Shown piece by piece: positions 18,408 through 58,797 of a DNA stretch of 58,797 nucleotides (position 1 is its first letter; each line of letters begins with the position of its first letter). The position numbers were made by a program, and so were the translations under genes. A model generated the notes under the pieces. It had not been told where the DNA came from. It searched no databases and saw nothing but the letters and a program-made list of their open reading frames with translations. The DNA is from a virus: positions 1 through 58,797 of IMG/VR virus record IMGVR_UViG_3300048837_000207. One strand, written 5' to 3'.

Positions 18408-18472
18408 GGCATCGCTCGGTACACTCGGAACTTCTCTGTCCCCAACTGCATGTTCCCTGAGCGAGGTCCGTA

Positions 18473-19030: not shown

Positions 19031-19452
19031 CGCCGCTCGACTGGATCAAGGCGCTACTCGGTAAGGGGCTCGTCGAGCCCGTAGCCGACTACTACAAGCG
19101 CAAGCAGGAACTCAAGCAGGCCAAGTTCGAAGCCCAGTTGAAGTTCGAACAGGCCAAGGGCGACCGGCAGGCACAACTCATCCGCGAGGGACTTGCCGCC
19201 GACGCGAACTGGGAGATGGAGTTCGCACGCCAAGCCGCTGCAAGCTGGAAGGATGAGTACACGTTGCTCGTCGTCAGCATCCCGGCAGTCCTCGCGTTCA
19301 TGCGAACGAAATGGCTCGATGGTCCGCAGATCGTTGCGGACGGCTTTGCGGCACTCGCCGCGACCCCTACTTGGTATCAAATCCTGCTCTGTAGCATGTT
19401 CGGTGCGACGGTGGGTATCCGCTGGTGGCGTCGGACCCAGAGCGACACATGA
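19027..19452 (+). CDS. Holin-like membrane protein
   Basis: A 141-residue protein whose ATG overlaps the endolysin stop. It has an amphipathic charged N-terminus and helix (KRKQELKQAKFEAQLKFEQAK). Two hydrophobic segments follow (TLLVVSIPAVLAFM, about residues 79-92, and WYQILLCSMFGATVGIRWW, about residues 117-135). Position next to the muramidase and two membrane spans fit a holin that permeabilises the inner membrane at lysis time. The long coiled N-terminus is unusual. Confidence 0.7.
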   Translation: MTPLDWIKALLGKGLVEPVADYYKRKQELKQAKFEAQLKFEQAKGDRQAQLIREGLAADANWEMEFARQAAASWKDEYTLLVVSIPAVLAFMRTKWLDGPQIVADGFAALAATPTWYQILLCSMFGATVGIRWWRRTQSDT

Positions 19453-19483
19453 GCGGGGAAGAGATGGATGGGAAGGTGTAATC

Positions 19484-45490: not shown

Positions 45491-45703
45491 GTAGTCTCCT
45501 TGTGAAAATGATAGTTCATGCCCCGTCTCGTGGGGCCTACGGCGGATCCAGAGTTCGCTCTTTATGAGGCGGCTTCACTCCCCCGCTGGCGACCGTTACT
45601 TTGTTGGGCCGAAGCCCGCAATGTCTCGCGACCTGTCGCCTGCGCGAGGGTGCGCTAGCACCTAACTTAAACAGCAGTATGCCCACGAATCCGAAAATGT
45701 CAA
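45491..45703 (-). promoter_or_regulatory. Sigma70-like promoter and structured leader
   Basis: On the minus strand TTGACA (45703-45698) and CATACT (16-bp spacer, near 45681-45676) form a good promoter. The following leader of about 180 nt holds stacked hairpins: GGTGC/GCACC, CTCGCG/CGCGAG, a GGGC-TTCG-GCCC tetraloop, and GCCCC/GGGGC just before the AAGGAG site. It drives the replication operon and may be a regulatory RNA leader. No known riboswitch pattern is recognised. Confidence 0.6.
45506..45516 (-). repeat. Directional motif copy M1
   Basis: Minus-strand AACTATCATTT, 16 bases upstream of the start at 45490 and directly before its AAGGAG site. It is the only copy outside the early block and its sole link to the replication operon. 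Confidence 0.7.
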
Positions 45704-45717
45704 GCCCTACAGCAGAC

Positions 45718-45747
45718 AAAAAAATGGGGACCCCCGAAGGGGTCCCC
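45718..45747 (-). terminator. Strong terminator ending the early block
   Basis: On the minus strand a perfect 9-bp stem (GGGGACCCC with its complement, TTCG loop) is followed by a run of seven T after one A. It separates the early transcription block, last stop at 45780, from the replication promoter at 45703. Confidence 0.9.
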
Positions 45748-45763
45748 AAAGTGTTTTCGGGCA

Positions 45764-45780
45764 CTTGCTAGGCTAGCAAT
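45764..45780. repeat. Palindrome copy P1 (centre GGC)
   Basis: TTGCTAGGCTAGCAA, 15-bp core at 45765-45779. It touches the stop codon of the last early gene and precedes the terminator, so no downstream early gene remains for it to control as an operator. Confidence 0.85.
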
Positions 45781-46505
45781 CAGGCGATGCCGTGGACTAC
45801 CCGAACCGGCCAGTCAGGACTGATCGTCTCGTCCGGTAGCAGCAGCGCCTCCGTGATGACCGCATCGTACGGGGCCAGCGCGGCAGGCGTCCATTCCTTG
45901 TCCAGCAGCACTGCCTCCGGTAGCCTCGACCGCACCTTGATCTTGCGCACGACTTCCTGCCCACGTTCAGGCAGGAAGCTGCACAGGTTGGGCCACAGCC
46001 GGTGGATCTGCCCCATCGTGTTGCAAGCCGAGAAGGCCCGCTCGACCTTGTTGTAGACCTGCGCACGCTCGATATCGAGCTTCACCCACCGCTCGCCCCA
46101 CTCCACCAGTGCATCCACCATGCTGATGGGAAGTCGGCTCATGTTCACCATGTCTGCGCCGGACCTCCATGTCTCGGTAGATGGCAGTGGCAGGCCAGTG
46201 CCGAACTTGACGAACATGGTCAGCGGCATCCTTGGCGGGGAGAACACAGTATCGACCTTGAACTCCTTCACGTCCCACTGCAGCGTCAGGTCGCTGTTCC
46301 GATGCAGCAGTGTCGGCATACTGGACTTCAGCAGCCGCAGGGCCGCACGTTCCTCATTTGTCCACAGGTGCCGGTAGATTTCCTTCGGGGCTATGGGGCA
46401 GGGGGCGAGCAGCCCCATCCGGTTCACCATCCGTTGCCCTACTCGCTCCAAGACTTCCGACTTGGAGTAGTCGCGGACGGTCTGGTTGTGTCGTCGTCGT
46501 CTCAT
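45780..46505 (-). CDS. Hypothetical early protein, paralogue of its neighbour
   Basis: A 241-residue protein, mostly helical. The segment ERAQVYNKVERAFSACNTMGQIHRLWPNLCSFLP and the later ITEALLLPDE align with IRHFHNKIYEV...IARAWPEVASAVP and ELLAASVMLPAD in the gene before it, so the two look like diverged copies. It starts MRRRRH, overlaps the neighbour by 4 bp, and ends at the block terminator. Function unknown. Confidence 0.6.
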   Translation of the reverse strand: MRRRRHNQTVRDYSKSEVLERVGQRMVNRMGLLAPCPIAPKEIYRHLWTNEERAALRLLKSSMPTLLHRNSDLTLQWDVKEFKVDTVFSPPRMPLTMFVKFGTGLPLPSTETWRSGADMVNMSRLPISMVDALVEWGERWVKLDIERAQVYNKVERAFSACNTMGQIHRLWPNLCSFLPERGQEVVRKIKVRSRLPEAVLLDKEWTPAALAPYDAVITEALLLPDETISPDWPVRVVHGIA

Positions 46506-47206
46506 GTTATGCCCTCCTTATTGAGGCCAATCCACGCTGGTAGTTTCCCGTCAGCAGGCAGCATCACGGAGGCTGCCAACAGCTCGACCAAGCGAACAGA
46601 ATCTGCTGCCGACAGGCGAAGGTTGAGCCTCCCCCTGATGGCTTCGATCCTGCCGGTGTCCCGATGCGGAGCAGTCCGCATCCCTGCCAGCAGGGACGGC
46701 ACCGCACTCGCGACCTCTGGCCACGCGCGAGCGATATCCGCCTTGCTGGAGAACAACGGAGAGACCTCGTAGATCTTGTTGTGGAAGTGTCGGATCTCCG
46801 TGTCCATCGCTTCCGCCTTCGCGTACCAAGCCGTGAGCTTAGGGTCCTTGCGCACCGCCTCGTCCAGCATGAACGGTGATAGTACGCTGCTGGGACACAC
46901 AGGGCAGTCCTCCATGTGTAGCCAGAACGGCTGGACAGGATCAGCCCAATCGTCCACCGTGCGTGGATCCTGCAGGGTGAAGTGGATTACCTGCTGCCGT
47001 GCCGTCGCGCGCAGCAGGTTCCGGTACGCTATGTTGTGGTGGTGCATGGACGTGGGGACACGATCCACGAACCACTTGGCCACTTGAGGGGTGAACGCCC
47101 CGGAGTAAACCTTCACCGGGTCGCATGGGAACGGGATCGTCTGCCTCAGTCGAGGCAGCAAACCCGCCAGCTCAGTACGAAACGTGTACCTGACTGCTTC
47201 ACTCAT
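46502..47206 (-). CDS. Hypothetical early protein, paralogue of its neighbour
   Basis: A 234-residue protein. The N-terminal half has a beta-like opening and two cysteines (EDCPVCPS). The C-terminal half carries the shared W-P-x-V-x-x-x-x-P pattern described for the next gene. It overlaps the VWA-protein gene by 8 bp, so it is translated with it and could be a substrate or partner of the MoxR/VWA pair. A weak copy of the directional motif (CGGTGATAGTA) lies near 46875. Confidence 0.55.
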   Translation of the reverse strand: MSEAVRYTFRTELAGLLPRLRQTIPFPCDPVKVYSGAFTPQVAKWFVDRVPTSMHHHNIAYRNLLRATARQQVIHFTLQDPRTVDDWADPVQPFWLHMEDCPVCPSSVLSPFMLDEAVRKDPKLTAWYAKAEAMDTEIRHFHNKIYEVSPLFSSKADIARAWPEVASAVPSLLAGMRTAPHRDTGRIEAIRGRLNLRLSAADSVRLVELLAASVMLPADGKLPAWIGLNKEGIT

Positions 47207-48455
47207 AGTCGCTCAGCTCCACGCGAACCAGATCACCGAACGGCGGCTGCACGTCCGTCGTCATTACCCAGATGACGGGGTAAGGCGGCGGGACCGGAGG
47301 GAACGTGCCGTAGCCGTCGGTGAAGAAGATCAGGCAGTCAGGCACGATGCCAAGTTCCTCCACCTTCTGGAACGCAGGGATGAAGTTCGTACCACCGCCA
47401 CCGCGAAGCTCGGGCTTGTAGGTGTAGAGGTCGGTGTTGGCATCCAGTTCGTGAACGTCATGCACCTTGGCGTCACAGGACATCAGCCACAACCGCTGTG
47501 GCCTGCATGTGGAGAGAATCTCAGCCGACTCGGCGTAGCTCGCATCGAACTCAGCCTGCCCCATGCTGCCAGAGGTATCCACCACCTTGACCACCGTGCC
47601 AGCGCCGAACCCGGTGTAGCTCGGGAAGAAGATCTTCTGAGTCACCAGCCGACGGCGATGCGGTGACGCCCACGACGTAGCCTCACGGCTCACGATACGT
47701 GTGACGATGTGCCGCAGCCGATCCTTCCAGTTGACCTGCGGCTTGAGCATCTCCTCCACCCAACGCTCAAGGCTGGCGGGCATCTTCCCCATTGCCTTGG
47801 CTTGGTTACGTGCCGACGCAATGGACCGCTTCATCTCAGCCTCGGACTGCTTCGACGGCTCGTAGATATGGGTGTCCATCGGTTGCTGGTCTCCCACACC
47901 TTCGTTGGACGGGTCCCCTTGGCTGCCGGGAGGCGGCTGTCCACCGCCCGGTCCACCCGGCCCTTTCCCCTTGCCACTGGGAGGCGGCTTGAGCTTCTTG
48001 GCGAGCAGCCGGTACACATCCTCAAACAGCTCGGTGCCTTCCCTCGCGATGTTGGTGTCGTACAGCAGTCCCTTCGGCATCTGCCCGATCTTGTTGGCAA
48101 CGAGCAGCGCGTTGACGATGTAGTCGGCTGCGATGTTCGCCAGTCCGGGGTGGAACGGCTTGCCTTCGAAGCCGAGATCCGAGTACCGCTTGAACCGATC
48201 CATGTGCATCCACATGGCGTGGCCAATCTCATGGCAGCACACGAACACGGCCTCGGGTAGGCTCAGCTTGGCGAGGAAGTCCTCGTCGAACCAGATGAGC
48301 TTGCCGTTGGTCGCAGCAGTGGGGATGCCGGGGTACTTGCCCACACGCAGGTCCATCATGTCGAGCATGAGGGACGCAAAGAACGGGCAGTGCAGAAGCA
48401 TCGCGGTCTTCATTTCGGTGAACCGCGTGCGTGCTACGGGGTTGTTGATTTCCAT
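47199..48455 (-). CDS. DUF2201-like putative metallopeptidase with VWA domain
   Basis: A 418-residue protein with two parts. The N-terminal FVCCHEIGHAMWMHMDR (about residues 72-88) is an HExxH zinc site, and GLANIAADYIVNALL follows, as in the DUF2201 N-terminal family. After a Gly/Pro/Lys-rich linker (residues 160-200), the C-terminal half is a VWA-type domain with a MIDAS-like DTSGSM, a GGGGTNF turn and FFTDGYG. Such proteins pair with MoxR AAA chaperones, and a MoxR-type gene lies 2.6 kb upstream in the same block. The start is AAGGAGACAACGATG next to palindrome P2. Confidence 0.85.
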   Translation of the reverse strand: MEINNPVARTRFTEMKTAMLLHCPFFASLMLDMMDLRVGKYPGIPTAATNGKLIWFDEDFLAKLSLPEAVFVCCHEIGHAMWMHMDRFKRYSDLGFEGKPFHPGLANIAADYIVNALLVANKIGQMPKGLLYDTNIAREGTELFEDVYRLLAKKLKPPPSGKGKGPGGPGGGQPPPGSQGDPSNEGVGDQQPMDTHIYEPSKQSEAEMKRSIASARNQAKAMGKMPASLERWVEEMLKPQVNWKDRLRHIVTRIVSREATSWASPHRRRLVTQKIFFPSYTGFGAGTVVKVVDTSGSMGQAEFDASYAESAEILSTCRPQRLWLMSCDAKVHDVHELDANTDLYTYKPELRGGGGTNFIPAFQKVEELGIVPDCLIFFTDGYGTFPPVPPPYPVIWVMTTDVQPPFGDLVRVELSDYE

Positions 48456-48467
48456 CGTTGTCTCCTT

Positions 48468-48484
48468 GTTGCTAGCCTAGCAAC
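48468..48484. repeat. Palindrome copy P2 (centre GCC)
   Basis: GTTGCTAGCCTAGCAAC fills most of the 30-bp gap before the VWA gene, directly upstream of its AAGGAG site. Its central base is reversed relative to the GGC copies. Confidence 0.9.
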
Positions 48485-48485
48485 G

Positions 48486-49118
48486 TCAAAGGTCGAGGCC
48501 GGTCTGGAGGTTGAACGTCAGGACCGGCTTGCTCCTGACGAACTCCAGTAGTGGCATGCGCAACGGCAGCAGTTCCTTCTGCCACTCACGAACGAGGTTC
48601 GCGAGCTTACTGGTTGCGGGCTTCAGGTGGCCGCCGCTACGCCGCCATCGGCTGCGGGACATGGGGACTTCGTCGTCCTTCACGTGGTGCCCCACGTTCC
48701 ACCCATCAACGCAGAGCCACATGAACTGACCAGTCCAGCTATCGCAGCGGCGAATCGCCACGGCGGTGCGCAGGTCTACGTCAACCATGTGGGCGGCGGC
48801 GATGAGGTCCGTCTTGCAGGCTTCGGCCTTGTCGATGGGCACCAACACGTTCATGTTCTTCTTGCCCACGTAGCCGATGTTGGGGACATTCGGAGCCTCG
48901 TCGCAGTTGTCGAGCATGGTGAGGACGGCTCCTACTGCGTCGCCGTGGGACACCTTGAATCCCTGCTCGATTGCGGAACACACCTTGGTGAAGTCGGACT
49001 TCTTCATCCGCTCCCACCGAAAAGTGATAGTTCCAGTGCAGGTAAACGCCTCGGTCAGGTCGCTGCACACGTAGATTCCACCGACACCAGTGTGTCCGCT
49101 GATTCGTGATACGTTCAT
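48486..49118 (-). CDS. Hypothetical early protein
   Basis: A 210-residue soluble alpha/beta protein with several cysteines but no clear zinc site (YVCSDLTEAFTCTG, TMLDNCDEAPN, IRRCDSWTG). The start at 49118 lies two bases after the previous gene. It contains a directional motif copy reading Thr-Ile-Thr-Phe. It sits between the 420-residue gene and the VWA gene, so a role with the MoxR/VWA module is possible. Confidence 0.5.
   Translation of the reverse strand: MNVSRISGHTGVGGIYVCSDLTEAFTCTGTITFRWERMKKSDFTKVCSAIEQGFKVSHGDAVGAVLTMLDNCDEAPNVPNIGYVGKKNMNVLVPIDKAEACKTDLIAAAHMVDVDLRTAVAIRRCDSWTGQFMWLCVDGWNVGHHVKDDEVPMSRSRWRRSGGHLKPATSKLANLVREWQKELLPLRMPLLEFVRSKPVLTFNLQTGLDL
49023..49033 (-). repeat. 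Directional motif copy M3
   Basis: Minus-strand AACTATCACTT (one change), inside the 210-residue gene near its 5' end, reading Thr-Ile-Thr-Phe. Confidence 0.55.
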
Positions 49119-49120
49119 GG

Positions 49121-50383
49121 TCAGACCTCCTTGGCCATGCGGTCCATCATGTTGATGACTTCCTGTGCGTGAGCGCCGACCTCGGCGCGGAGCGTCGGCT
49201 TGGTCCGAAGTTCCTCCACGTCGTGCTGGCACAGGTGCTTGTCGATGTACTGGCGAATCTCTTCGATCCGCTTGTCACCCGTGACGTTCAGGTGCTTGAG
49301 CTGGCCGGACACCGACCGAACGTTGTCCACCAACGTGTAGTGAAACAGCTTGTCGGGATGCGACAGCCGCTCAGCCATACGCCCCACGTTCTCGTGGATG
49401 CGGACCCACAGGTCCTGCATGGCGTTCTCCAGCATCCTCTTCGTCTTGCCCTTCAGTGCGTCAGCCAGTGCCTGACACTGGGCCTCGGGCAGCCCCTTGA
49501 AGTCCGAGCCGACCGGGATCGGATGGAAGTCGAACGAGATATCGAAGTGCTGCCGGATCGACTCAGCATTGGGGTAGTCCGAGATATCGAACCGCTTGCC
49601 GAGCTTCTTCTTGGCCTCTTCGATCAGTTGGGGGTACAGCGGCACAAACGCATCCACCGCTGCCTCCATCTCCGCCTTGCGAGCGCCGAGCTTGCTGATG
49701 CAGTCGAAGAACGATGTGTTGGGCATCATCCTCGCCCCCGACCGACGGCCTGTGTCGTCCAGACCAGTGGTCGTCCACGGCGCAGTCACCGCGTAGAAGT
49801 CGGCACGTGCCGAGTCGATCGCCTTGTGGATCTTCTTCAGTTCCGTGTCGGCCCCCGCGAGCAGGTGCTTACGGGTTTCGAACGCAGTCACGTCGGCGTC
49901 GTTCGCATCGGCCACGTCTTGGCTGGCCTTGCGATCCTTCACCTTCGCATGCCACCTACGTGTGTTGAGCGTCACCAACGTGGCGAAGTTGCGCAGGTCC
50001 AGAGTCTCTGCGATCTCGTCGGTGGTGAACGTCGGCATGGTCATGGGCGGCAGCGAGTAGTCCGTCCTGTCCTTGGTGTCGGCAAAGGGCAGGGTTTCCT
50101 CCTGCGGGGCCGCAGGCTCGGTGATCGGCAGTTGCTCGCTGAAGTCAGCGAACGCCTCGCCTACCGGGTCCGTTGCTAGGCTAGCAACGTCGGGCTGGTC
50201 CATGATTTCCGTAGGCAACGGCTCGCCGTGGGTCAGCTCCTGCACGTCCGTAATCAGCGGCTCAAGCTCGGACTTGGGTTCCTCCACAGGTGCCGAAATG
50301 ATAGTTTCCGGCTCCTGCACAGGCAGAGGCTTGCTCTCGTCGAGGATATCAGCGAGCAGTTCGTCGAGGTTGAAGTCAGTCAT
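49121..50383 (-). CDS. Conserved phage protein of the MoxR/VWA module
   Basis: A 420-residue protein. Residues 1-115 are acidic, Pro-rich and probably disordered, and hold both a palindrome (as DVASLATD) and a directional motif (as ETIISAP). The rest is helical: TLVTLNTRRWHAKVKDRKAS, AFVPLYPQLIEEAKKKLGKRFDISDYPNAESIRQHFDISFDFHPIPVGSDFKGL. From memory this resembles DUF3150-type proteins found beside MoxR ATPases. It is probably a scaffold or adaptor for the AAA ring. The start is AAGGAGACACACAATG. Confidence 0.6.
   Translation of the reverse strand: MTDFNLDELLADILDESKPLPVQEPETIISAPVEEPKSELEPLITDVQELTHGEPLPTEIMDQPDVASLATDPVGEAFADFSEQLPITEPAAPQEETLPFADTKDRTDYSLPPMTMPTFTTDEIAETLDLRNFATLVTLNTRRWHAKVKDRKASQDVADANDADVTAFETRKHLLAGADTELKKIHKAIDSARADFYAVTAPWTTTGLDDTGRRSGARMMPNTSFFDCISKLGARKAEMEAAVDAFVPLYPQLIEEAKKKLGKRFDISDYPNAESIRQHFDISFDFHPIPVGSDFKGLPEAQCQALADALKGKTKRMLENAMQDLWVRIHENVGRMAERLSHPDKLFHYTLVDNVRSVSGQLKHLNVTGDKRIEEIRQYIDKHLCQHDVEELRTKPTLRAEVGAHAQEVINMMDRMAKEV
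50172..50188. repeat. Palindrome copy P3 (centre GGC), in coding sequence
   Basis: Perfect GTTGCTAGGCTAGCAAC inside the 420-residue gene's disordered region, reading Val-Ala-Ser-Leu-Ala on the minus strand. Confidence 0.9.
50296..50306 (-). repeat. Directional motif copy M4
   Basis: Minus-strand AACTATCATTT followed by CGGCACC, 108 bp from P3 in the same coding region, reading Thr-Ile-Ile-Ser. Confidence 0.75.
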
Positions 50384-50522
50384 TGTGTGTCTCCTTGTAG
50401 CGTCGAAGGGTCTCAGCATCCACCAGCCACGTGGCGGCAGCGTTGAGTGCGAACATTGCCATGCAGCAGATCATCAGCAGCGTATCCCGCACGGCTTGGG
50501 ATACAGTCATGAAAGCGTTCAC
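50376..50522 (-). CDS. 48-residue single-span membrane protein
   Basis: Starts at GTG 50522, which forms a GTGA overlap with the preceding stop and lies 8 bases after GGAG. The protein has one hydrophobic helix (LLMICCMAMFALNAAATWLV, residues 15-34) and a charged C-terminus (DAETLRRYKETHND). The stop overlaps the 420-residue gene's start by 8 bp. It is a tiny membrane peptide of an early host-takeover type. No family is recognised. Confidence 0.6.
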   Translation of the reverse strand: MNAFMTVSQAVRDTLLMICCMAMFALNAAATWLVDAETLRRYKETHND

Positions 50523-50689
50523 CAGTTGGTCTCCTTGCGTCGTAGCTCGATCTCCATGCGGAGCCTTTCCACTTCGCGTTCAGAACGGCGGTGTTCTTCC
50601 TCCGTGCGCTTGAAGCGCCGAAGGGCCTGTTCAAGCTCCATCTCCATCCGCCAGAGCGGGAGCCTCGGTTGCAGTCGGTGGGCGTTCAT
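50519..50689 (-). CDS. 56-residue coiled-coil peptide
   Basis: ATG 50689 overlaps the preceding stop as ATGA and is followed by a Glu/Arg-rich heptad pattern (EMELEQALRRFKRTEEEHRRSEREVERLRMEIELRR). The whole protein is probably one long coiled coil. It overlaps both neighbours by 4 bp, so it is translated between the MoxR-associated genes. Function unknown. Confidence 0.6.
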   Translation of the reverse strand: MNAHRLQPRLPLWRMEMELEQALRRFKRTEEEHRRSEREVERLRMEIELRRKETNW

Positions 50690-51018
50690 CCTTCCTCCTT
50701 CATGATGCGAATCGCTTCGGCCTCTGTGTAACGGCGGACAAGTTCAGGGTGCAGCCGAATGATGCCCCCCTCACTCACGTACTCGGTGCTGAGCATGCCT
50801 GCCGCCAGCAGGATATCCCCACCCCTTGACGCTCCCCACTGGACCAGCCGAACGTCGAACATGTCGGCATGCACGACGCCACGCTGGATGCGGTGTTCCA
50901 GTCTCACTTGGATAGCCCCTCCCCATCCTGCGATGGTGGCGCGATACCCGCTGGACTTACTGCCGCAGCGAGTGGCCTCCCCCTTCGTGCCCTTGATGCT
51001 GCCGTAGAAGTGGCTCAC
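50686..51018 (-). CDS. Conserved phage protein (FYGSIKGTKGEATRCG type)
   Basis: A 110-residue protein, start GTG 51018 (GTGA overlap with the MoxR-type gene). The opening SHFYGSIKGTKGEATRCGSKSSGYRATIAGWGGAIQV matches a small family widespread in phages, usually with unknown function. The C-terminal half has strand patterns (DMFDVRLVQWGA) and a helix. It is coupled tightly to the AAA protein and so is a probable accessory. Confidence 0.65.
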   Translation of the reverse strand: MSHFYGSIKGTKGEATRCGSKSSGYRATIAGWGGAIQVRLEHRIQRGVVHADMFDVRLVQWGASRGGDILLAAGMLSTEYVSEGGIIRLHPELVRRYTEAEAIRIMKEEG

Positions 51019-52082
51019 TTGCGCTGCTCCAAGATGTTGGCCGCCAGCACCAGATCCTTGTTCTCCCGGATCCACTGCGCGAAGTCGGGGGTCTGGATCA
51101 TCTGCGGGCAACGGCGCAGCACAGCCTTGAGGCCAGCCACCTGAAACTCCTTGCCCAACCGCTTGAGGAAGGTGAACGCAGGCTTGGCCGTGGTGGCATC
51201 CACACGATGCGCGACCATCTGCATGCAGGCATACGTCGCGTCGATCCGGTTCTCGGGAACCTTCACCTTGTCGGGTGTCGCCACGATATCCTCCCACTTG
51301 GGCAGTTCCTCAGCCACACGCAGAAACGCAACGAACTCAGCCGCTGCACCTTCACCGATGTAGCCACCTGCCGCCTCGGTGAACATGTCCATTGGCAGCT
51401 TGCCGATCAGATGGCTGGTCTTGACGAACGTGCGGGGAGTGCAGAACGGACCCGACTTGTCCGGTACCTTGTCAGCGAAGATCAGGCTCGGCTTCACCTT
51501 TGCGAATGCAATGGCGAACGGGTTCAGCCCCTGCCGCTCGGCCCAATCGACCCACGAGTCCAGAGAGGGTTCGATGTTGACCCGGCAGATGCGGTTCTGG
51601 ATGAACGCCAGATCCCGGTTCACGCCCGAACGATCCGACTCACGGTTCGATGCCGCGACGACCATGTACGTGAGTTCGAGCCGTGACTCGCCCACTTGGC
51701 CTGACAGCATCAGTTCCGCACTCGGCTTGGCAACGTCGGGGTTGGCCTGCGCACGCTCGTTGAGGAAGATGAAGCCGTGCTTGGGGTCATTCGCACGCGG
51801 GACCCACGGTGCCTTCGTGAAGGTCATGATGGGACTGTTGTCCGTATCACGACCGGGGAGGCCGAAGCCACGTACGTCCGGTGCCTCAACCGTGGTGAGA
51901 AAGAAGGACTTGATGCCGAAGGGCTGTGCGAGCCGCTTCGAAATGATAGTCCCCGCCTGCGCCACGGCAGCATCCTTGCCGACGCCCGGCCCGGACACCA
52001 GCTCCACGGTGAAGCGTTCGCCCGTCTCCTGCTGAATGAAGTACATGTCGGCAAGGAAGATGGCAGCTTGGTTTACGTTCAT
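51015..52082 (-). CDS. MoxR-type AAA+ protein with unusual Walker motifs
   Basis: A 355-residue protein with the MoxR layout. Walker A region LVSGPGVGKDAAV; LTTVEAPDVRGFGLPG; Walker B region GFIFLNERAQA; sensor YMVVAASNRESDRSG; second region FCTPRTFVKTSHL. Walker A lacks the Thr/Ser after Lys (Asp instead), and Walker B has Asn where Asp is usual, though the Glu is kept. Magnesium binding may be altered. MoxR proteins remodel VWA partners, here probably the gene at 47199-48455. The start is AAGGAGACAACACACATG. Confidence 0.82.
   Translation of the reverse strand: MNVNQAAIFLADMYFIQQETGERFTVELVSGPGVGKDAAVAQAGTIISKRLAQPFGIKSFFLTTVEAPDVRGFGLPGRDTDNSPIMTFTKAPWVPRANDPKHGFIFLNERAQANPDVAKPSAELMLSGQVGESRLELTYMVVAASNRESDRSGVNRDLAFIQNRICRVNIEPSLDSWVDWAERQGLNPFAIAFAKVKPSLIFADKVPDKSGPFCTPRTFVKTSHLIGKLPMDMFTEAAGGYIGEGAAAEFVAFLRVAEELPKWEDIVATPDKVKVPENRIDATYACMQMVAHRVDATTAKPAFTFLKRLGKEFQVAGLKAVLRRCPQMIQTPDFAQWIRENKDLVLAANILEQRK
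51941..51951 (-). repeat. Directional motif copy M5
   Basis: Minus-strand GACTATCATTT inside the MoxR-type gene, reading Thr-Ile-Ile-Ser just after its Walker A motif. Confidence 0.65.
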
Positions 52083-52128
52083 GTGTGTTGTCTCCTTCGA
52101 TTGATGATTGATCTAACGAACATGCGCC

Positions 52129-52341
52129 TCACGGCGCTTGCATCCAGTATCGAGCGGCCTCGTCGCTCCAGATGTCCTTGACGAGCTGCGCCGCAGCCTT
52201 GTTCGTTCCAGACATCAGTGGGTAGCCGTCCCGGTTGCGGACGATCCACGTACCGGGGTGCGACGTTGACTCTTCCAGTTCGAACGGTGCGTTGAGTGCG
52301 GCCCACTCAGGGTCGCTGGGCGTTGGGGGTTTCCTCGTCAT
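52129..52341 (-). CDS. Small hypothetical early protein
   Basis: A 70-residue protein. ATG 52341 overlaps the end of the preceding gene by 35 bp. The segment HPGTWIVRNRDGYPLMSGTNKAAAQLVKDIWSDEAARYWM reads as a small strand-strand-helix fold. It sits directly upstream of the MoxR-type gene. No family is recognised. Confidence 0.5.
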   Translation of the reverse strand: MTRKPPTPSDPEWAALNAPFELEESTSHPGTWIVRNRDGYPLMSGTNKAAAQLVKDIWSDEAARYWMQAP

Positions 52342-52528
52342 ACATCCTCCTTTCGTAGGTATCACGGATCACTGCCCACGCGTTACGCGGCTCACCCTTG
52401 GCGCGTAGCACGTGGCCCATGTGGATGAGGAACTCGGCTTCACCTGTCTGGGTAGTGGTAGTGACGGTATTGATGGTCGCGGTGCCGAACTGCAGCATGT
52501 ACGCTGCAAGCCAGTCCTCGTCAGTCAT
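52307..52528 (-). CDS. Small hypothetical early protein started at a palindrome
   Basis: A 73-residue protein with an acidic start (MTDEDWLAAYMLQFG), a Thr-rich centre (NTVTTTTQTG) and a basic C-terminus. Palindrome P4 abuts the ATG directly, so the site occupies the place of the ribosome-binding site and only a weak AGG remains. Repressor binding or RNA folding would be expected to block its translation. No family is recognised. Confidence 0.5.
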   Translation of the reverse strand: MTDEDWLAAYMLQFGTATINTVTTTTQTGEAEFLIHMGHVLRAKGEPRNAWAVIRDTYERRMYDEETPNAQRP

Positions 52529-52545
52529 GTTGCTAACCTAGCAAC
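52529..52545. repeat. Palindrome copy P4 (centre ACC)
   Basis: GTTGCTAACCTAGCAAC. It touches the ATG of the 73-residue gene and also contains the TAG stop of the upstream 58-residue gene, so one 17-bp site spans a gene junction. Confidence 0.85.
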
Positions 52546-52709
52546 AGGCGGAACCAGTTGACCATCTGGTAGATGGCCTGCAGGCTCCACACGAAGCACA
52601 AAATGATAGCGATAATGCAGGCAATCCTGCCGATCGCGCCGATTGCTGCCCATGTGTCGAGCAAGATCAGCGTGCGTGTGGGGTCGATGCCTTTACGTCT
52701 CTCGTTCAT
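52533..52709 (-). CDS. 58-residue membrane protein
   Basis: Starts at ATG 52709 and has a basic N-terminus (NERRKGIDPTR). One long or two short hydrophobic segments follow (LILLDTWAAIGAIGRIACIIAIILCFVW). The end LLLG-stop is encoded by the first half of palindrome P4, and a directional motif copy lies in the membrane segment. No family is recognised. Confidence 0.55.
   Translation of the reverse strand: MNERRKGIDPTRTLILLDTWAAIGAIGRIACIIAIILCFVWSLQAIYQMVNWFRLLLG
52601..52611 (-). repeat. Directional motif copy M6
   Basis: Minus-strand CGCTATCATTT inside the 58-residue membrane gene, reading Ala-Ile-Ile-Leu. It lies about 60 bp from P4. Confidence 0.5.
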
Positions 52710-52956
52710 TTGGGTTCTCCATGAGTACGACTTCATAGTCGCGGTGGTCGAGGCTGTCTGCCCACTGGTCTGCGGACATGACAGAGGGGAAGGGTCCATA
52801 CGCTTCAGAGTCTCCGTCACCTGAGCGATGGACGATCAGCACGAACTGGTAGCGTTCCTCCTTTGGTGGTTGATCGAACGGTTTCATAGGCGAGCCACAG
52901 CCCGAACAGGTCTCGGGCTTCTGGGCTTCGGTGCCGCAGGCAGCGCAGATCCACAT
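52693..52956 (-). CDS. Zinc-ribbon protein with GPF-type domain
   Basis: An 87-residue protein. The N-terminal WICAACGTEAQKPETCSGCGSPM is a four-cysteine zinc ribbon. The rest (YQFVLIVHRSGDGDSEAYGPFPSVMSADQWADSLDHRDYEVVLM) matches the C-terminal domain of the gene immediately upstream (YILIHGNPVDGMEYYGPFDDPSDASDYGDKLQGDWWVKEL). The two genes therefore share a small unnamed domain. It may be a DNA-contacting or protein-bridging early factor. Confidence 0.6.
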   Translation of the reverse strand: MWICAACGTEAQKPETCSGCGSPMKPFDQPPKEERYQFVLIVHRSGDGDSEAYGPFPSVMSADQWADSLDHRDYEVVLMENPNERET

Positions 52957-52958
52957 GG

Positions 52959-53627
52959 TCAGCCTCCCTTCACGAGTTCCTTCACCCACCAGTCACCCTG
53001 CAACTTGTCCCCATAGTCACTGGCATCAGAAGGATCATCGAAGGGACCGTAGTACTCCATGCCGTCCACAGGGTTGCCGTGGATCAGGATGTACAGCGCG
53101 GGCTTGACGGCAGGATTGGTGACGTAGCCGGTGGCCGCCTTGTTCTTGACCCACTCACTGGCCAGCTCACGCAGCCGCTTCTCGTGGTTGTGCAGCGATT
53201 CGTGGAGCATCTTCCCCATCGCTTCGGCACGGCCAATCGCCTTGGTCGTCGTACCTTCCTTCTGGATCAGCGCCAGAACTTCGTTGTTCAGCTCGGCCAG
53301 TCGATTGTTGAACAGATCGAACTTCTCAGCCGTGGTGATCGACCGCCTGTCCATTTCCTCCCTTGTGTCCACGACTGCCCTACCGGCCAGATCAGCCTTG
53401 CAGAACGCATCGGACGACTGCTTGGTCAGGAACGCGATCCGGTCCTGCAGGGCCTTGATCACGTCGTTGTTGGACTCGTACCACTCGGTGTGGCCTTCGA
53501 TGTGGTCATGCACGCGAGCGAACAGCAGGTCGAACTTGTCCCGCAGATCCCTGATGCCCTGCGCCAGCTCAGCGGCGCGTTGCAGAGAGATATGGGACTT
53601 CTGGGTTGTGGATTTCTTCGTGGTCAT
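52959..53627 (-). CDS. Coiled-coil early protein with shared GPF-type domain
   Basis: A 222-residue protein started by AAGGAGACACACATG, with palindrome P5 overlapping the ribosome-binding site region. Residues 12-170 form long helices (RAAELAQGIRDLRDKFDLLFARVHDHIEGH, then LNNEVLALIQKEG). The last 45 residues are the small domain shared with the downstream zinc-ribbon protein. No enzyme motif is seen. Confidence 0.55.
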   Translation of the reverse strand: MTTKKSTTQKSHISLQRAAELAQGIRDLRDKFDLLFARVHDHIEGHTEWYESNNDVIKALQDRIAFLTKQSSDAFCKADLAGRAVVDTREEMDRRSITTAEKFDLFNNRLAELNNEVLALIQKEGTTTKAIGRAEAMGKMLHESLHNHEKRLRELASEWVKNKAATGYVTNPAVKPALYILIHGNPVDGMEYYGPFDDPSDASDYGDKLQGDWWVKELVKGG

Positions 53628-53636
53628 GTGTGTCTC

Positions 53637-53653
53637 CTTGCTAGGTTAGCAAC
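53637..53653. repeat. Palindrome copy P5 (centre GGT)
   Basis: TTGCTAGGTTAGCAA core at 53638-53652, overlapping the CCTT half of the ribosome-binding site of the gene at 53627. Confidence 0.85.
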
Positions 53654-53660
53654 GTGTGAA

Positions 53661-53671
53661 AAATGATAGTT
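53661..53671 (-). repeat. Directional motif copy M7
   Basis: Minus-strand AACTATCATTT followed by TTCACACGT, in the gap upstream of the gene at 53627 and only 8 bp from P5, the closest pairing of the two families. Confidence 0.75.
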
Positions 53672-53680
53672 TGAGGGGCT

Positions 53681-53699
53681 GGGGGGCAGAACGCCCCCC
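53681..53699 (-). terminator. GC hairpin between early genes
   Basis: GGGGGGC and GCCCCCC (7-bp stem, 5-base loop) in the gap after the 166-residue gene. No T-run follows on the minus strand. It is either a weak terminator or an mRNA-end stabiliser upstream of M7. Confidence 0.4.
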
Positions 53700-53722
53700 G
53701 CCATGCGCAGAGAACCTGCGGC

Positions 53723-54223
53723 TTACTTGAACTCGCCGATGAGCCACGCCAGCTTGTTGGCATCGCCGGTCATGAACGACTCGTCAATGCTGCGGGCAAG
53801 ATCCTGCCACTTCTCGACCTCGCAATGCGGAACTTCCAGCTTGCGAGTGTCCTCCCTGCGGCCATAGTCATGCGTCAGGCCGAGTGCCGGGAACGCCACC
53901 TGCGTGGTGTACGTGGAGCCGACGGTGGGCAGGGTGTCGATCGTGGCCTTCACTTCCTCGGCAAACTCCTTCATGGCCACGGCATCGAACTGCACGGCGC
54001 ACTCAGCCCCCCATCCCCGCTGGATGGCAGTGATATCGGGCCGGATCGACTTCACCAGTCGCTTCTCGTACTTCTTCAGGATCTTCTGCGCCGCCGCTTC
54101 GATCTTCGCGTTGTTCGTCAGTTCGAACTTGGCCGCCAGATCGGTCTGCAATTTGCAGGCCGCCGTCGCCTTGGCCATGAGCATGGACTTGATGACGCGA
54201 AGCTGTGCTTGGGTGATCTTCAT
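53723..54223 (-). CDS. Hypothetical early protein
   Basis: A 166-residue protein started by GAAGGAGAAACACATG. The N-terminal half is Lys/Ala-rich and helical (AQLRVIKSMLMAKATAACKLQTDLAAKFELTNNAKIEAAAQKILKKYEKRLVK). The C-terminal half is mixed, with TTQVAFPALGLTHDYGRRED. Palindrome P6 lies just upstream. A helical, basic early protein of this type could bind nucleic acid, but no motif supports this firmly. Confidence 0.5.
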   Translation of the reverse strand: MKITQAQLRVIKSMLMAKATAACKLQTDLAAKFELTNNAKIEAAAQKILKKYEKRLVKSIRPDITAIQRGWGAECAVQFDAVAMKEFAEEVKATIDTLPTVGSTYTTQVAFPALGLTHDYGRREDTRKLEVPHCEVEKWQDLARSIDESFMTGDANKLAWLIGEFK

Positions 54224-54236
54224 GTGTTTCTCCTTC

Positions 54237-54253
54237 GTTGCTAGGTTAGCAAT
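54237..54253. repeat. Palindrome copy P6 (centre GGT)
   Basis: GTTGCTAGGTTAGCAAT. It lies between the stop at 54253 and the AAGGAG site of the gene at 54223. Confidence 0.85.
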
Positions 54254-54471
54254 CAGTTGATGGTCGGATTGGCCGCGAGTATCTGGTCGATCAAGTCGAT
54301 GCACTGCTCGGCCTGTGCCAGTGCCTCGGCATGCTGTGCGCCCCCTCCTTTCAGGGCCTTCAGTCGGTTGTAGAGCTTGACCCACTCCCAGCGAATCTCC
54401 TTCGCGCGGGCAATGGTCTCGGCATCCAGCGGCTGCGACAACTGGATGTGGTTGGTCACGAAGATGTTCAC
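54253..54471 (-). CDS. Small hypothetical helical protein
   Basis: A 72-residue protein, start GTG 54471 with GGAGG nine bases upstream and a GTGA overlap with the preceding stop. It is helical (IARAKEIRWEWVKLYNRLKALKGGGAQHAEALAQAEQCIDLIDQIL), with a coiled-coil look. No family is recognised. Confidence 0.5.
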   Translation of the reverse strand: MNIFVTNHIQLSQPLDAETIARAKEIRWEWVKLYNRLKALKGGGAQHAEALAQAEQCIDLIDQILAANPTIN

Positions 54472-54587
54472 GGGTACGGCCTCCCCGCCTCGACCACCCA
54501 GAGGACCATGAACATGATCCACAGGACGGCAACTGCGAAGTAGCCCAGCCAGCCCAGCACACGTGCCGAAAATGATAGTTTCCTCAT
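54468..54587 (-). CDS. 39-residue single-span membrane peptide
   Basis: ATG 54587 overlaps the preceding stop by one base (TGATG), and the TGA overlaps the next GTG. The sequence has a basic start (MRKLSFSAR), one membrane helix (VLGWLGYFAVAVLWIMFMVL), then a short tail. A directional motif copy forms codons 3-7. It is the shortest of the tiny membrane proteins in the block. Confidence 0.55.
   Translation of the reverse strand: MRKLSFSARVLGWLGYFAVAVLWIMFMVLWVVEAGRPYP
54570..54580 (-). repeat. Directional motif copy M8
   Basis: Minus-strand AACTATCATTT followed by TCGGCACGTG, the best match to the extended consensus. It sits in codons 3-7 of the 39-residue gene, in a different frame from the Thr-Ile-Ile-Ser copies. 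Confidence 0.75.
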
Positions 54588-54778
54588 CACTTCCACCCTC
54601 CCCTGCCAAAGATACGGTCGAACTCAGCCTCGAAACGAGGACTGGCCAGAGCCTCCGATACCGCAACGTCCTCGGCGCGGTCGTCCTCGGGCTTGGGCGG
54701 CACGTATGTGCAATGAGGGCAATCGCCAGCGATTGCTTCCCCTCCACAGTACGTGCAGACATGTGTTGGTGCCGTCAT
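54587..54778 (-). CDS. Small zinc-ribbon protein
   Basis: A 63-residue protein. THVCTYCGGEAIAGDCPHCTYVPP (residues 5-28) is a four-cysteine zinc ribbon, and an acidic helix follows. Its ATG overlaps the PRTase stop (TAATG). Together with the 87-residue gene it is one of two zinc-ribbon proteins in this block, possibly transcription- or translation-directed factors. Confidence 0.65.
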   Translation of the reverse strand: MTAPTHVCTYCGGEAIAGDCPHCTYVPPKPEDDRAEDVAVSEALASPRFEAEFDRIFGRGGWK

Positions 54779-55686
54779 TACATATCCCTCTGCAGTGCGT
54801 TCAACGAGGCATTGGTGGCAACGAGGTCGAGCTTGTCGTTCAGCGCCCGACGCTGGTCCTCCATTCTCTCCTCCAGATCCATCAAGGCACGGCGAGCTTT
54901 CCCGCCACGCTTGGTGGGAGGCTTGGGGGTCTTGGGTTTGCGCGTCGAGTTCATCGTGCGCTGCTCGGCGTAGACCTCGTCAATGGTGGGGCACGACTGA
55001 ACCGCGATCATGAAGCCCCTCACGTCGGGGCCGGAGTACTTCGGCAGCGAGACCCAAGCCGACAGTTCCTCGGTCACGGTGGGCGCGGCATACACAGGGT
55101 TGCCGTTCTCGTCCTGTGTGTCGTAGGGCTGCGGGGTTGCTAGGCTAGCAACGAGCGTATCGGTTATGTCGGAGTCCGGCCTCGGCCACTTGGCAGGCTT
55201 GGGTTCAGGCCGTGCGTTGGGATCGAACCCCTCGGGCAGGCGCCCACACACGTCGGCGTAGCTCCAGATGATGTACGGCGCATAGGTGATGGCGCCAAGG
55301 AACTGGGTCTCGTACCCGACTTTATCTGCCGTCACGTTGACCGAAATGATAGTTTTCGTGAGCGTGTTGCCAGAGCTGATCAAGTCATCCACGAACACCC
55401 ATCGCCTGCCGATCGTGCCTTCGATGCACTCGGAGCTGTGCGAGCCGTCGTTGTCCTTGCGGGCAATGGCCCAGCGCAGCCCCAAGGCTCGTGCCACGTA
55501 GGGCACAACCAGTGCGCCCGACAGGCCACGGCCTACGAGCGTGTCGCACTCGTCGAACTCTGCGAAGTTGGCTAGTCCCTCCTTGATGTAGGGAATGATC
55601 GCATCCAAGTCAGCCAGTGCCGATTCGAGGTATGGCGCGTGGGCCATGAGGATATCCCCGTCGGCGGACATGATTACGCGAGGCAT
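54778..55686 (-). CDS. Phosphoribosyltransferase-domain fusion protein
   Basis: A 302-residue protein. The first 135 residues are a type I PRTase fold: DTLVGRGLSGALVVPYVARALGL, then the PRPP motif WVFVDDLISSGNTLTKTII (about residues 97-115). The rest is not part of known PRTases: a Pro-rich linker holding palindrome P7 (as LVASLATP), then a Lys/Arg-rich coiled coil (RALMDLEERMEDQRRALNDKLDL). The directional motif lies inside the PRTase domain. Substrate unknown; nucleotide salvage or a regulatory PRTase are both possible. Confidence 0.7.
   Translation of the reverse strand: MPRVIMSADGDILMAHAPYLESALADLDAIIPYIKEGLANFAEFDECDTLVGRGLSGALVVPYVARALGLRWAIARKDNDGSHSSECIEGTIGRRWVFVDDLISSGNTLTKTIISVNVTADKVGYETQFLGAITYAPYIIWSYADVCGRLPEGFDPNARPEPKPAKWPRPDSDITDTLVASLATPQPYDTQDENGNPVYAAPTVTEELSAWVSLPKYSGPDVRGFMIAVQSCPTIDEVYAEQRTMNSTRKPKTPKPPTKRGGKARRALMDLEERMEDQRRALNDKLDLVATNASLNALQRDM
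55136..55152. repeat. Palindrome copy P7 (centre GGC), in coding sequence
   Basis: Perfect GTTGCTAGGCTAGCAAC in the linker of the PRTase fusion, reading Val-Ala-Ser-Leu-Ala. Confidence 0.9.
55344..55354 (-). repeat. Directional motif copy M9
   Basis: Minus-strand AACTATCATTT followed by CGGTCAACGTG, in the PRTase domain just after its PRPP motif, reading Thr-Ile-Ile-Ser. Confidence 0.75.
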
Positions 55687-55687
55687 C

Positions 55688-55840
55688 TTACTTCCCCTTG
55701 CTGTGTGGAACCGTGAACTTACCGGCACGGTCGGTGTACCGTGTCGGGCTGTCCTGCCTGTGGTCGTACTTGAGCTTCTGCTCGCGCCGCTTGGCGTGGC
55801 GGTCCGAGAGTGGCTTGCCGTACTGGTTCGTGGATTTCAT
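55688..55840 (-). CDS. 50-residue highly basic protein
   Basis: ATG 55840 after GGAG. It is rich in Lys, Arg, His, Asp and Tyr (SDRHAKRREQKLKYDHRQDSPTRYTDRAGKF). No hydrophobic core is apparent, so it may be disordered and bind nucleic acid. The frame stays open upstream through palindrome P8, but no better start is seen there. It is the first gene read after the 614-bp control region. Confidence 0.5.
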   Translation of the reverse strand: MKSTNQYGKPLSDRHAKRREQKLKYDHRQDSPTRYTDRAGKFTVPHSKGK

Positions 55841-55913
55841 CGTCGTTCTCCGTGTGGTGCCCCATTGGTGGATGCTATGGGTTGTGGGGCTGTCGGCCCA
55901 TAGCGTGTGTGTG

Positions 55914-55930
55914 ATTGCTAGGCTAGCAAC
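55914..55930. repeat. Palindrome copy P8 (centre GGC)
   Basis: ATTGCTAGGCTAGCAAC, 74 bp upstream of the 50-residue gene's ATG and 4 bp from the first AAGCGTC unit. Confidence 0.88.
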
Positions 55931-55933
55931 GGG

Positions 55934-56214
55934 AAGCGTCATCCAGATGGATGGCTGTGACGCTTTCGCTGGACGCTTTATTTCCGTTTAGGATCAAGGG
56001 CTTAGGGGGTATTGGGTAAAGGGACCACGTTTTTTTTACACGTAACGCTGTGGGGCTTTGGTCCCCAATCCCCTGACCCTTCTCTCTGCCCTGCCCTCAC
56101 GTGTAACCATCCTCAGTTAGCTCTATACCTCTTTTACCTATTTATATATAAGTATATAATATATAAAGGAATTCATCCAAAAGAAGCGTCCCGCAATTTG
56201 CCGAATAAAGCGTC
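55934..56214. repeat. Five AAGCGTC iteron-like units
   Basis: AAGCGTC at 55934-55940, 56184-56190 and 56208-56214 on the plus strand, and its complement at 55959-55965 and 55972-55978. The units flank the AT-rich island on both sides. Confidence 0.55.
56151..56180 (-). promoter_or_regulatory. Possible leftward promoter in AT-rich island
   Basis: Minus-strand TTGGAT (56180-56175), 18-bp spacer, TATACT (56156-56151). It would drive the block from the 50-residue gene onward. The AT-rich setting offers other -10 choices. Confidence 0.4.
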
Positions 56215-56260
56215 ACATGTTGGCGCTTTCGTGCCGGAAGCCCCGTACAGTACGTGCCGC

Positions 56261-56271
56261 GATGATAGTAA
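56261..56271 (-). repeat. Directional motif copy M10
   Basis: Minus-strand TTACTATCATC followed by GCGGCACGTA. The extended part matches M8 better than the core does. It lies in the control region upstream of the 50-residue gene. Confidence 0.55.
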
Positions 56272-56297
56272 TCCGCCGCTTTTCGGCCCCCCAGCCT

Positions 56298-56342
56298 CAC
56301 GTTCCCAACACGTAAGGTTCAAAGCTACGTGTTGGGAACGTG
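56298..56342. repeat. Inverted repeat, 17-bp arms and 11-bp spacer
   Basis: CACGTTCCCAACACGTA at 56298-56314 is exactly complementary to 56326-56342. It could be an operator for a dimeric protein, an origin element or a cruciform. P9 begins 8 bp further on. Confidence 0.85.
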
Positions 56343-56349
56343 TCCAGCC

Positions 56350-56366
56350 ATTGCTAGGCTAGCAAC
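56350..56366. repeat. Palindrome copy P9 (centre GGC)
   Basis: ATTGCTAGGCTAGCAAC, between the long inverted repeat and the terminator of the 245-residue gene. Confidence 0.88.
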
Positions 56367-56413
56367 ACGTGTGGGGAAAAGCCTCAAGGGCCGAGGTTTG
56401 CCATGACGCGGAC

Positions 56414-56442
56414 AAAAAAAGGGAGCGCCTTGCGGCGCTCCC
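56414..56442 (-). terminator. Terminator after the first early gene
   Basis: On the minus strand a perfect 9-bp stem (GGGAGCGCC/GGCGCTCCC, GCAA loop) is followed by seven T. It makes the 245-residue gene a separate transcript from the block downstream. Confidence 0.9.
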
Positions 56443-56454
56443 AATTTCGGCCTG

Positions 56455-57192
56455 TTAGCCGACGGCCAGCGGGTTGTTGCGGTACGTGTTGCCGTGCTTC
56501 AGCGACACCGCGCAGTTGTCGGCCCAGAGGACCAACTGCGCCTTTGCCTTGGCATTGAGGCACGCCGGGACCGCAGCGCCCTCGGGCTTGAGGTTCAGGA
56601 TGCGGTCGATCAACGTCGCCACGTCCTTCGCGTACTCCGGTGTCGCGGCGGCGGCGGCCTTGCGGGCTTCCATGACCGCAGCGAGGTTGTACGCCGCGTC
56701 TTTCAACTCTGTGCAGAGTTTGCCCGCGTCCACCACACCGTGGATGATTCCCTGCTCCTTCGCCTGTGCAAGGATCGTGCTGCACGTGAACAGCGCCTTC
56801 GCCCTGCTGTGCTTCTGGTCGCAGGTCCGCTTGATGCGGTCCTGATCTTCCTTCGGCAGCTTCGACGTGTCGCCGTAGGATGCCGCGAGCTTCGCGCGCA
56901 CTGCGTCGGCGTGCTTGTTCACCACTTCCTCGGGGAGCGGCTTCCCGCGCCACTCGGCGGGAACGTGCGGCGCGAAGGACAGCACAGCACCGAGGAACGT
57001 CGTGTCCCTGCTGTGAGTGTCGAACGACTTCACCACTGCATCTTCCAGCGCGGTCCACGCCGACTCGGCGATTGCTAGGCTAGCAACCTCGGGCGTCGTC
57101 TGCTGAACCGCGTTCAGCACGGGCTGGCCACCCTGCGCCGCGAGCTTGGCTTCAAGTTCCGCGATCTTCTGAGCCATTGTCTGTCGAGCCAT
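56455..57192 (-). CDS. First leftward early protein, unknown function
   Basis: A 245-residue protein, ATG 57192 after CAGGAGAAAGCA. The N-terminus is a short coiled coil (MAQKIAELEAKLAAQGG). A linker containing palindrome P10 (as EVASLAIAES) follows, and then a helical body (ALEDAVVKSFDTHSRDTTFLGAVLSFAPHVPAEWRGKP). The cysteines KRTCDQKHSRAKALFTC and AGKLCTELK may bind metal. It is the promoter-proximal gene of the leftward block, with its own terminator and flanked by three palindromes (P9-P11), so it could be the regulator that binds them; this is speculation. Confidence 0.6.
   Translation of the reverse strand: MARQTMAQKIAELEAKLAAQGGQPVLNAVQQTTPEVASLAIAESAWTALEDAVVKSFDTHSRDTTFLGAVLSFAPHVPAEWRGKPLPEEVVNKHADAVRAKLAASYGDTSKLPKEDQDRIKRTCDQKHSRAKALFTCSTILAQAKEQGIIHGVVDAGKLCTELKDAAYNLAAVMEARKAAAAATPEYAKDVATLIDRILNLKPEGAAVPACLNAKAKAQLVLWADNCAVSLKHGNTYRNNPLAVG
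57071..57087. repeat. Palindrome copy P10 (centre GGC), in coding sequence
   Basis: ATTGCTAGGCTAGCAAC within codons 36-41 of the 245-residue gene, reading Val-Ala-Ser-Leu-Ala. Confidence 0.9.
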
Positions 57193-57395
57193 TGCTTTCT
57201 CCTGTGGGACGGTATGTCCATAGGACGGGTGGTGGGGGAGGGGGGGTCCGGCGCTCGGCGTTGCTAGGCTAGCAAGTCGCGGGGCTACCGGGGTGCCGGA
57301 CACCGGCCACCCCCGTCCGTAGGCCCCTATTAGGCACTTCAGCCCCACACCAAGTAGGGTAGACAACCTACCCTACCCCGGTTTATCCTCCCCCG
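57193..57395. promoter_or_regulatory. Divergent control region
   Basis: This 203-bp gap separates leftward and rightward early genes. It contains palindrome P11, a G-rich run (57229-57247), and an inverted repeat GTAGGGTAG/CTACCCTAC (57354-57362 and 57368-57376, 5-bp spacer) 20 bp before the rightward ATG. No convincing sigma70 pair was found. The rightward gene lacks a ribosome-binding site. Confidence 0.5.
57260..57276. repeat. Palindrome copy P11 (centre GGC)
   Basis: GTTGCTAGGCTAGCAAG, 68 bp upstream of the ATG at 57192, the most promoter-proximal copy. Confidence 0.88.
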
Positions 57396-58791: not shown

Positions 58792-58797
58792 AGCGGG

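Follow-up and report, generated by a model that had tools for sequence, protein, structure and literature searches.

The early unit and its dyad array

The window, i.e., the whole stretch of 58,797 nucleotides analyzed here, is an IMG/VR contig of podovirus-like gene content that encodes portal and major head protein families, an internal virion protein, a DNA polymerase, an exonuclease, a helicase and a primase-helicase. It apparently represents a fragment and not a whole genome, relatives having ~3.4-4 kb more between the contig ends; this stretch between positions 58797 and 1 corresponds to positions 60806-64184 in the related contig G002 and to 15354-19461 in G003. Gene strands diverge at ~57.3-57.4 kb, and the early and replication genes lie on the minus strand between this point and 34 kb. 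The nearest isolates are the Rhizobium phages RHph_TM3_14A and kin, followed at greater distance by Planktothrix phage Pag-Yong1, and megablast against 50,697 phage records yielded no DNA-level match for the part from 40.0 to 58.8 kb. Rfam gave no matches, and neither an integrase nor an immunity repressor was found among the proteins scanned, which form a subset of those of the incomplete contig.

The dyad TTGCTA-N3-TAGCAA is present in 11 copies, all of them located within positions 45764-57276. When the whole contig was searched on both strands with the pattern GTTGCTA-NNN-TAGCAAC and up to three mismatches, all eleven sites of the original prediction were recovered and no further copy, degenerate ones included, appeared elsewhere in the contig, in agreement with the claim that the dyad is confined to this block. 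About one copy would be expected by chance; shuffled sequences contained one copy on average and four at most, and 0 of 100 shuffles reached 11. The sites and the elements around them are as follows, starting at the operon head and with dyads given without strand:

57260-57276, dyad site 1, located 68 bp ahead of the first early gene
56455-57192, minus strand, operon-head gene (245 aa) with an all-helical model; an aligning head gene lies behind a dyad in most relatives
57071-57087, dyad site 2, in the first early gene, codons ~36-41 (EVASLAI), adjoining a low-confidence linker of the model
56421-56442, minus strand, intrinsic terminator behind the first early gene; an equivalent is found in relatives
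56350-56366, dyad site 3, in the gap directly past the first gene's terminator
55914-55930, dyad site 4, in a gap, 74 bp upstream of the second early gene
55136-55152, dyad site 5, in a 302-aa gene (VASLAT)
54237-54253, dyad site 6, flanked by a stop codon and the ribosome-binding site of a 166-aa gene
53637-53653, dyad site 7, immediately upstream of the ribosome-binding site of a 222-aa gene
52529-52545, dyad site 8, immediately next to the ATG of a 73-aa gene
51015-52082, minus strand, 355-aa ATPase (phrog_1297), a conserved marker of the group
49121-50383, minus strand, conserved 420-aa early gene carrying a dyad
50172-50188, dyad site 9, in the N-terminal part (linker) of the 420-aa gene; the equivalent place is used by other dyads in most relatives
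48468-48484, dyad site 10, preceding the ribosome-binding site of the VWA/metallopeptidase-like gene (418 aa)
47199-48455, minus strand, 418-aa protein (phrog_1314), VWA/metallopeptidase-like in relatives
45764-45780, dyad site 11, past the final stop codon of the block, directly before a terminator
45725-45748, minus strand, intrinsic terminator closing the early unit, kept in relatives
45676-45703, minus strand, sigma70-like promoter TTGACA-16-CATACT preceding the downstream genes, kept in relatives

Within these sites, the 12 arm bases TTGCTA/TAGCAA are identical in 11 of 11 cases, and variation is limited to the outer pair, where R..Y is preferred, and to the 3-bp centre, which on the plus strand reads GGC seven times, GGT twice and GCC and ACC once each. 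The earlier description of near-invariant half-sites around a variable centre thus holds for the inner arms and is to be extended by the outer pair, which varies as well. The innermost pair is complementary in eight of the 11 sites, so that the dyad usually extends to a single central G:C pair, and its fullest form is RTTGCTAG-S-CTAGCAAY, a duplex dyad.

According to gene maps from a purpose-written simple gene finder, in which individual start codons may be off, three sites of the window lie in genes (57072, 55137 and 50173) and eight in gaps; among the latter, four are situated 1-14 bp and two 68-74 bp upstream of a start, one follows the terminator of the first gene and one the block's final stop codon. 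Several dyads adjoin a Shine-Dalgarno sequence on its upstream side, and most have no overlap with a recognizable promoter. This distribution over gaps, genes and the region past the last stop is the one originally described, and such scattering supports the accompanying view that the array is not one single promoter operator.

In the window and its near relatives, 14 genomes in all, 72 of the 101 sites reside in gaps (15.1 ± 3.5 expected) and 34 are found upstream of a start at a distance of at most 45 bp (20.0 ± 3.8 expected among gap positions). Dyads of different sequence, termed words in the following, occupy common positions, i.e., just ahead of the operon-head gene, behind the terminator of that gene, within the N-terminal portion of the 420-aa gene and downstream of the last early gene. 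In a five-phage alignment combined with a scan, the last site is followed by the conserved intrinsic terminator and then by the conserved TTGACA..CATACT promoter. With its first site ahead of the head gene and its last one just before terminator and promoter, the array therefore spans the early transcription unit, and the long contigs of near relatives contain no dyads in late genes.

Other features of the minus strand in this block are an AT-rich stretch (TTTATATATTATATACTTATATATAAATAG) at 56120-56165 in a GC-rich phage, similar in relatives and a possible origin or promoter, and an inverted repeat CGCTATGGGC...GCCCATAGC at 55865-55905, downstream of the site at 55914, with similar elements in the related contigs L158 and L159.

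Conservation of the sites and switching of the dyad word

In the nearest relative (83% identity in the 418-aa protein), the window's dyad recurs in 10 copies. At nine orthologous sites, 108 of 108 arm bases and 81% of the centre are identical, whereas identity amounts to ~45% in the ungapped 60-bp flanks. Both arms are under selection and the sites are far more conserved than neighbouring bases; neither this comparison nor the search for copies elsewhere, the two tests named in the original prediction, refutes it. In addition, the centre triplet is often reversed between orthologous sites (GGC vs. GCC), so that the sites possess no fixed direction.

Related podovirus contigs carry 5-11 copies each of a dyad of their own, namely TTAACAG-N-CTGTTAA, TTACAAG-N-CTTGTAA, TTACTCA-N-TGAGTAA, TCACACG-NN-CGTGTGA or CCACACA-NN-TGTGTGG. 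The half-site TTACACA is combined with one, two or three central bases depending on the phage (TTACACA-N1/2/3-TGTGTAA), and G002 contains the symmetric variant TTAGCAG-N-CTGCTAA beside TTAACAG-N-CTGTTAA, i.e., paired changes in the two arms (TTAACA/TTAGCA). GTTACCG-NN-CGGTAAC, TGCTAC-N-GTAGCA and CACTAC-N-GTAGTG occur in more distant relatives. RHph_TM3_14A has 15 copies of GTTACC-N6-GGTAAC distributed genome-wide and Pag-Yong1 has 19 copies of GGTTCA-N3-TGAACC in 50 kb, both reaching late genes. Across the podovirus group, at least nine different words are thus in use, and in first-order Markov resamples of the same loci one 6+6 dyad is almost never present twice.

No such array was detected at several distant loci (~35% ATPase identity) or at most N4-like loci (~25%). 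A pattern scan of IMG/VR with the 17-mer returned, among the matches listed, single copies outside the group except for one contig with two (L037), and concatenated-dyad BLAST, which recovers 31 cluster O phages, found no match for the window's word in known phages. N4-like contigs of ~35% GC (L222, L223, L224 and L231-L236) bear two to four copies of ATTTAC-NN-GTAAAT near the ATPase gene and may possess the same kind of array; in the related contig L165, five [TC]CACACA-NN-TGTGTGG dyads form a tandem 20-bp array at 6213-6308.

Short dyads in many copies could in principle be neutral mobile or recombinational repeats. This is scarcely credible here, since degenerate copies are wholly absent, the arms are perfect amid diverged flanks and positions are common while the word changes. 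The switching also bears on the idea that the phages captured sites of a host transcription factor. It is conceivable, in line with this idea, that hosts differ between related phages with different dyads, but many copies lie at non-promoter positions and a change of both half-site and spacer between related phages is easier to envisage with a phage-encoded partner; we consider a host factor very unlikely.

The dyads might also load a protein that, in a ParB- or KorB-like manner, organizes, anchors, partitions or replicates the early-entering genome end or assists its uptake, effects on transcription being secondary. The occurrence of sites both in genes and in gaps, with no constant placement relative to promoters, would agree with such an architectural role, as would the extension into late genes in RHph_TM3_14A and Pag-Yong1. 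The same applies to the site spacing, which in most genomes becomes wider with distance from the operon head (Spearman 0.86-0.93 in 8 of 14), a trend that is partly due to longer distal genes. On the other hand, the array in the window's clade stops at the early terminator and does not cover the genome, and no ParB-like gene was present in the subset of proteins scanned. On balance, an architectural role appears unlikely.

With regard to the form in which the dyads are read, the innermost bases on either side of the single central one are complementary to each other in 80 of the 91 sites. A one-base loop cannot be closed by a hairpin; preservation of the pair flanking the central base is therefore expected only if a two-fold symmetric protein reads duplex DNA. 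Predicted RNA folds at the window's sites are weak and unremarkable (z -0.4 to -2.3). The suggestion that the minus-strand RNA could form a hairpin at these sites is disfavoured by the retention of this very pair. The pair, the weak folds and the freely flipping centre likewise speak against translation control by a transcript hairpin beside the ribosome-binding site, as proposed for the SAS/ESAS motifs treated below. While the excess of sites shortly upstream of starts and the proximity of several window sites to Shine-Dalgarno sequences would suit this mode of action, sites also occur in genes and past the last stop, and we judge it quite unlikely.

The early hairpin promoters of bacteriophage N4 consist of a short stem and a 3-nt loop with a central purine on the template strand. 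The dyads resemble them in stem and loop size, a purine occupies the loop centre on the plus strand in nine of the window's 11 sites, and gene content overlaps with that of N4-like phages. However, loop polarity is absent, as the centre flips in relatives with both orientations seen; start points would land inside ribosome-binding sites and a sigma70-like promoter is present. Moreover, no N4-like virion polymerase was found: the 3610-aa virion protein (23008-33840, plus strand) shows an N-terminal lytic transglycosylase and C-terminal LPD39/DarB-like matches, with a middle part without match, and yielded no polymerase match in PHROGs, Pfam or PDB, though most of the protein matches nothing. 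The lack of a polymerase match and the flipping centre led us to drop N4-type promoters for a phage RNA polymerase as highly improbable.

Candidate binding proteins and a second, oriented motif

Among 140 early-region proteins compared with Pfam, one DNA-binding family of note emerged, a ribbon-helix-helix (RHH) protein of ~53-75 aa. It is present in every near relative with a long enough contig and has no match in the window. In G002 and G003, the RHH gene is located between orthologs of the window's last and first gene, in the ~3.4-4 kb absent from the contig. The original statement that no repressor gene is evident may accordingly be an artefact of the truncated contig, relatives encoding the RHH protein in the missing stretch. 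RHph_TM3_14A, on the other hand, combines genome-wide sites with the lack of a detectable RHH_1 gene, which counts against reading the array as regulator sites.

As a reader of the dyad, the RHH protein fits poorly. Its base-contact residues, which by analogy with CopG we take to be R10, H12 and I14, are invariant across phages whose dyads differ, and it may therefore bind a second motif instead, which would suit it better. It occurs in all sufficiently long contigs, yet the constancy of these predicted residues speaks against it as the dyad binder.

This second motif, [CT]TATCA[CT] or YTATCAY, which the original prediction does not mention, is asymmetric and oriented with transcription, a property of stoperators that is absent from the dyads. 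In the early blocks of the 14 near relatives there are ~90 copies on the coding strand vs. ~5 on the other strand, and the early block of the window has 9 vs. 0, with ~1-3.6 expected per block. The gap after the head gene contains an invariant copy in five aligned phages, ACTATCATY followed by GGCACG. The copies in the window are:

56261-56269, minus strand, second motif ACTATCATC in the gap after the head gene; the ACTATCAT core plus GGCACG is the part invariant in the five aligned phages
55345-55353, minus strand, second motif ACTATCATT
54579, 53670, 52610, 51950, 50305, 49031, 46883 and 45515, minus strand, start positions of further copies (those of the two above being 56269 and 55353)

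The operon-head protein (245 aa) is conserved in position and fast-evolving. Its confident all-helical AlphaFold model (pLDDT 84) matched no fold in PDB or BFVD and gave no VIA hit that is reliable (best Z 4.6), and these model searches neither support nor exclude it as a candidate dyad binder.

A homologous, fast-evolving protein pair is encoded in tandem at 45780-46505 and 46502-47206 on the minus strand, beside the last site, and recurs in nearly all relatives. It was discarded as binder, its AlphaFold model (pLDDT 87) giving no fold match. At a comparable place, Pag-Yong1 has two genes, one of them annotated as an AcrVA2-like anti-CRISPR. Single Pfam matches among early proteins of the window and its relatives (alignment A1) pertain to Tad2-like (Thoeris anti-defence), DUF6915, Band_7 and DUF6878.

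Comparison with known arrays and interpretation

Dispersed dyad arrays are already known, their function being unexplained, from two groups of actinobacterial phages. Mycobacterium cluster O phages such as Corndog contain more than 30 copies of 17-bp repeats with nearly invariant 7-bp arms and a 3-bp variable centre without orientation, about two-thirds of them in or near gaps, and are not obviously temperate (PMC4351075). In Microbacterium cluster EG phages (Hyperion, Squash and OneinaGillian), 8-10 copies of an 18-bp dyad, GATCAACC-NN-GGTTGATC, are described from short gaps in one genome arm, typically 14-22 bp upstream of starts, as conserved despite divergence of the region, and neither a repressor nor an integrase is reported (PMC7302621). 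The dyads studied here agree with this kind of array of apparently lytic phages in a length of 15-18 bp, invariant arms, a variable centre, many copies, absence from the rest of the genome, a preference for gaps and often for positions shortly upstream of starts, and persistence of sites amid diverging surroundings. They differ from cluster O, where copies with an A/T-rich centre cover the whole genome, by their 5-11 copies, G/C centre and restriction to the early unit. Cluster EG phages are unrelated actinobacterial phages in which the word is constant across the three phages described and, as far as that account extends, neither a terminator-bounded early unit nor a second directional motif is reported; in the present clade, the word switches and both features were found. 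New are thus the clade-wide word switching, the fit to the early unit, the YTATCAY motif and a conserved RHH gene located in the DNA missing from the contig.

The original prediction had named mycobacteriophage stoperators as the closest known analogy. Stoperators of cluster A are asymmetric, 13 bp in length, mostly in one orientation to transcription and bound by a known immunity repressor of temperate phages, with a motif that drifts from one subcluster to the next in parallel with its binder (PMC9283540; PMC6550527). Many dispersed sites in transcribed DNA and a motif that changes between groups are common to stoperators and the dyads; in contrast, the window's site is a perfect dyad with a centre that flips between orthologous sites. 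As two defining features, asymmetry and orientation, are lacking, we do not file the dyads as stoperators. The analogy is apt as a functional likeness, i.e., the array may work like stoperators by blocking elongation, but clusters O and EG share its architecture and stand closer. A further repeated motif upstream of starts is known as SAS/ESAS from clusters K and EF, with inverted repeats in the ESAS of cluster K (PMC3203893; PMC7302621); SAS is asymmetric and covers the ribosome-binding site, whereas the dyads precede the Shine-Dalgarno sequence and also occur within genes.

Taking these lines together, we propose with a probability of about one half that the array provides operator or roadblock sites for a lineage-specific, dimeric and phage-encoded regulator that would restrain or shut off early transcription. 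Such a regulator would bind the dyads with a recognition word differing from lineage to lineage and would occupy many points, i.e., ahead of the first gene, in intergenic gaps, within a small number of coding linkers and, with the last site, just before the terminator. Once bound, it would occlude the head promoter region and road-block RNA polymerase along the early unit, partial blocks adding up, with the outcome that early transcription is lowered or shut off. The clade-wide RHH protein, absent from the truncated contig, and the fast-evolving operon-head protein are the candidate binders. A spacer of 1 to 3 bp among phages with the half-site TTACACA is awkward for a rigid dimer and counts against the regulator, as does the fact that few sites overlap a recognizable promoter.

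A more elaborate version, which we consider unlikely, assumes two interlaced sets of sites for elongation control on the early operon of a lytic podovirus. The switching dyads would define immunity-like specificity groups without lysogeny and serve early shut-off and the exclusion of superinfecting relatives, while the near-invariant, oriented YTATCAY would form the second set, possibly read by the RHH protein.

Arrays reported earlier without function from two actinobacterial phage groups are here a trait of a podovirus group that reaches isolates from Rhizobium and Planktothrix. The natural variation in words, at least nine in number, can be used for finding the binder, the specificity of which must change with the word. 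If the proposed role in transcription proves true, strictly lytic phages would use multi-site elongation control, which has so far been tied to temperate mycobacteriophages.
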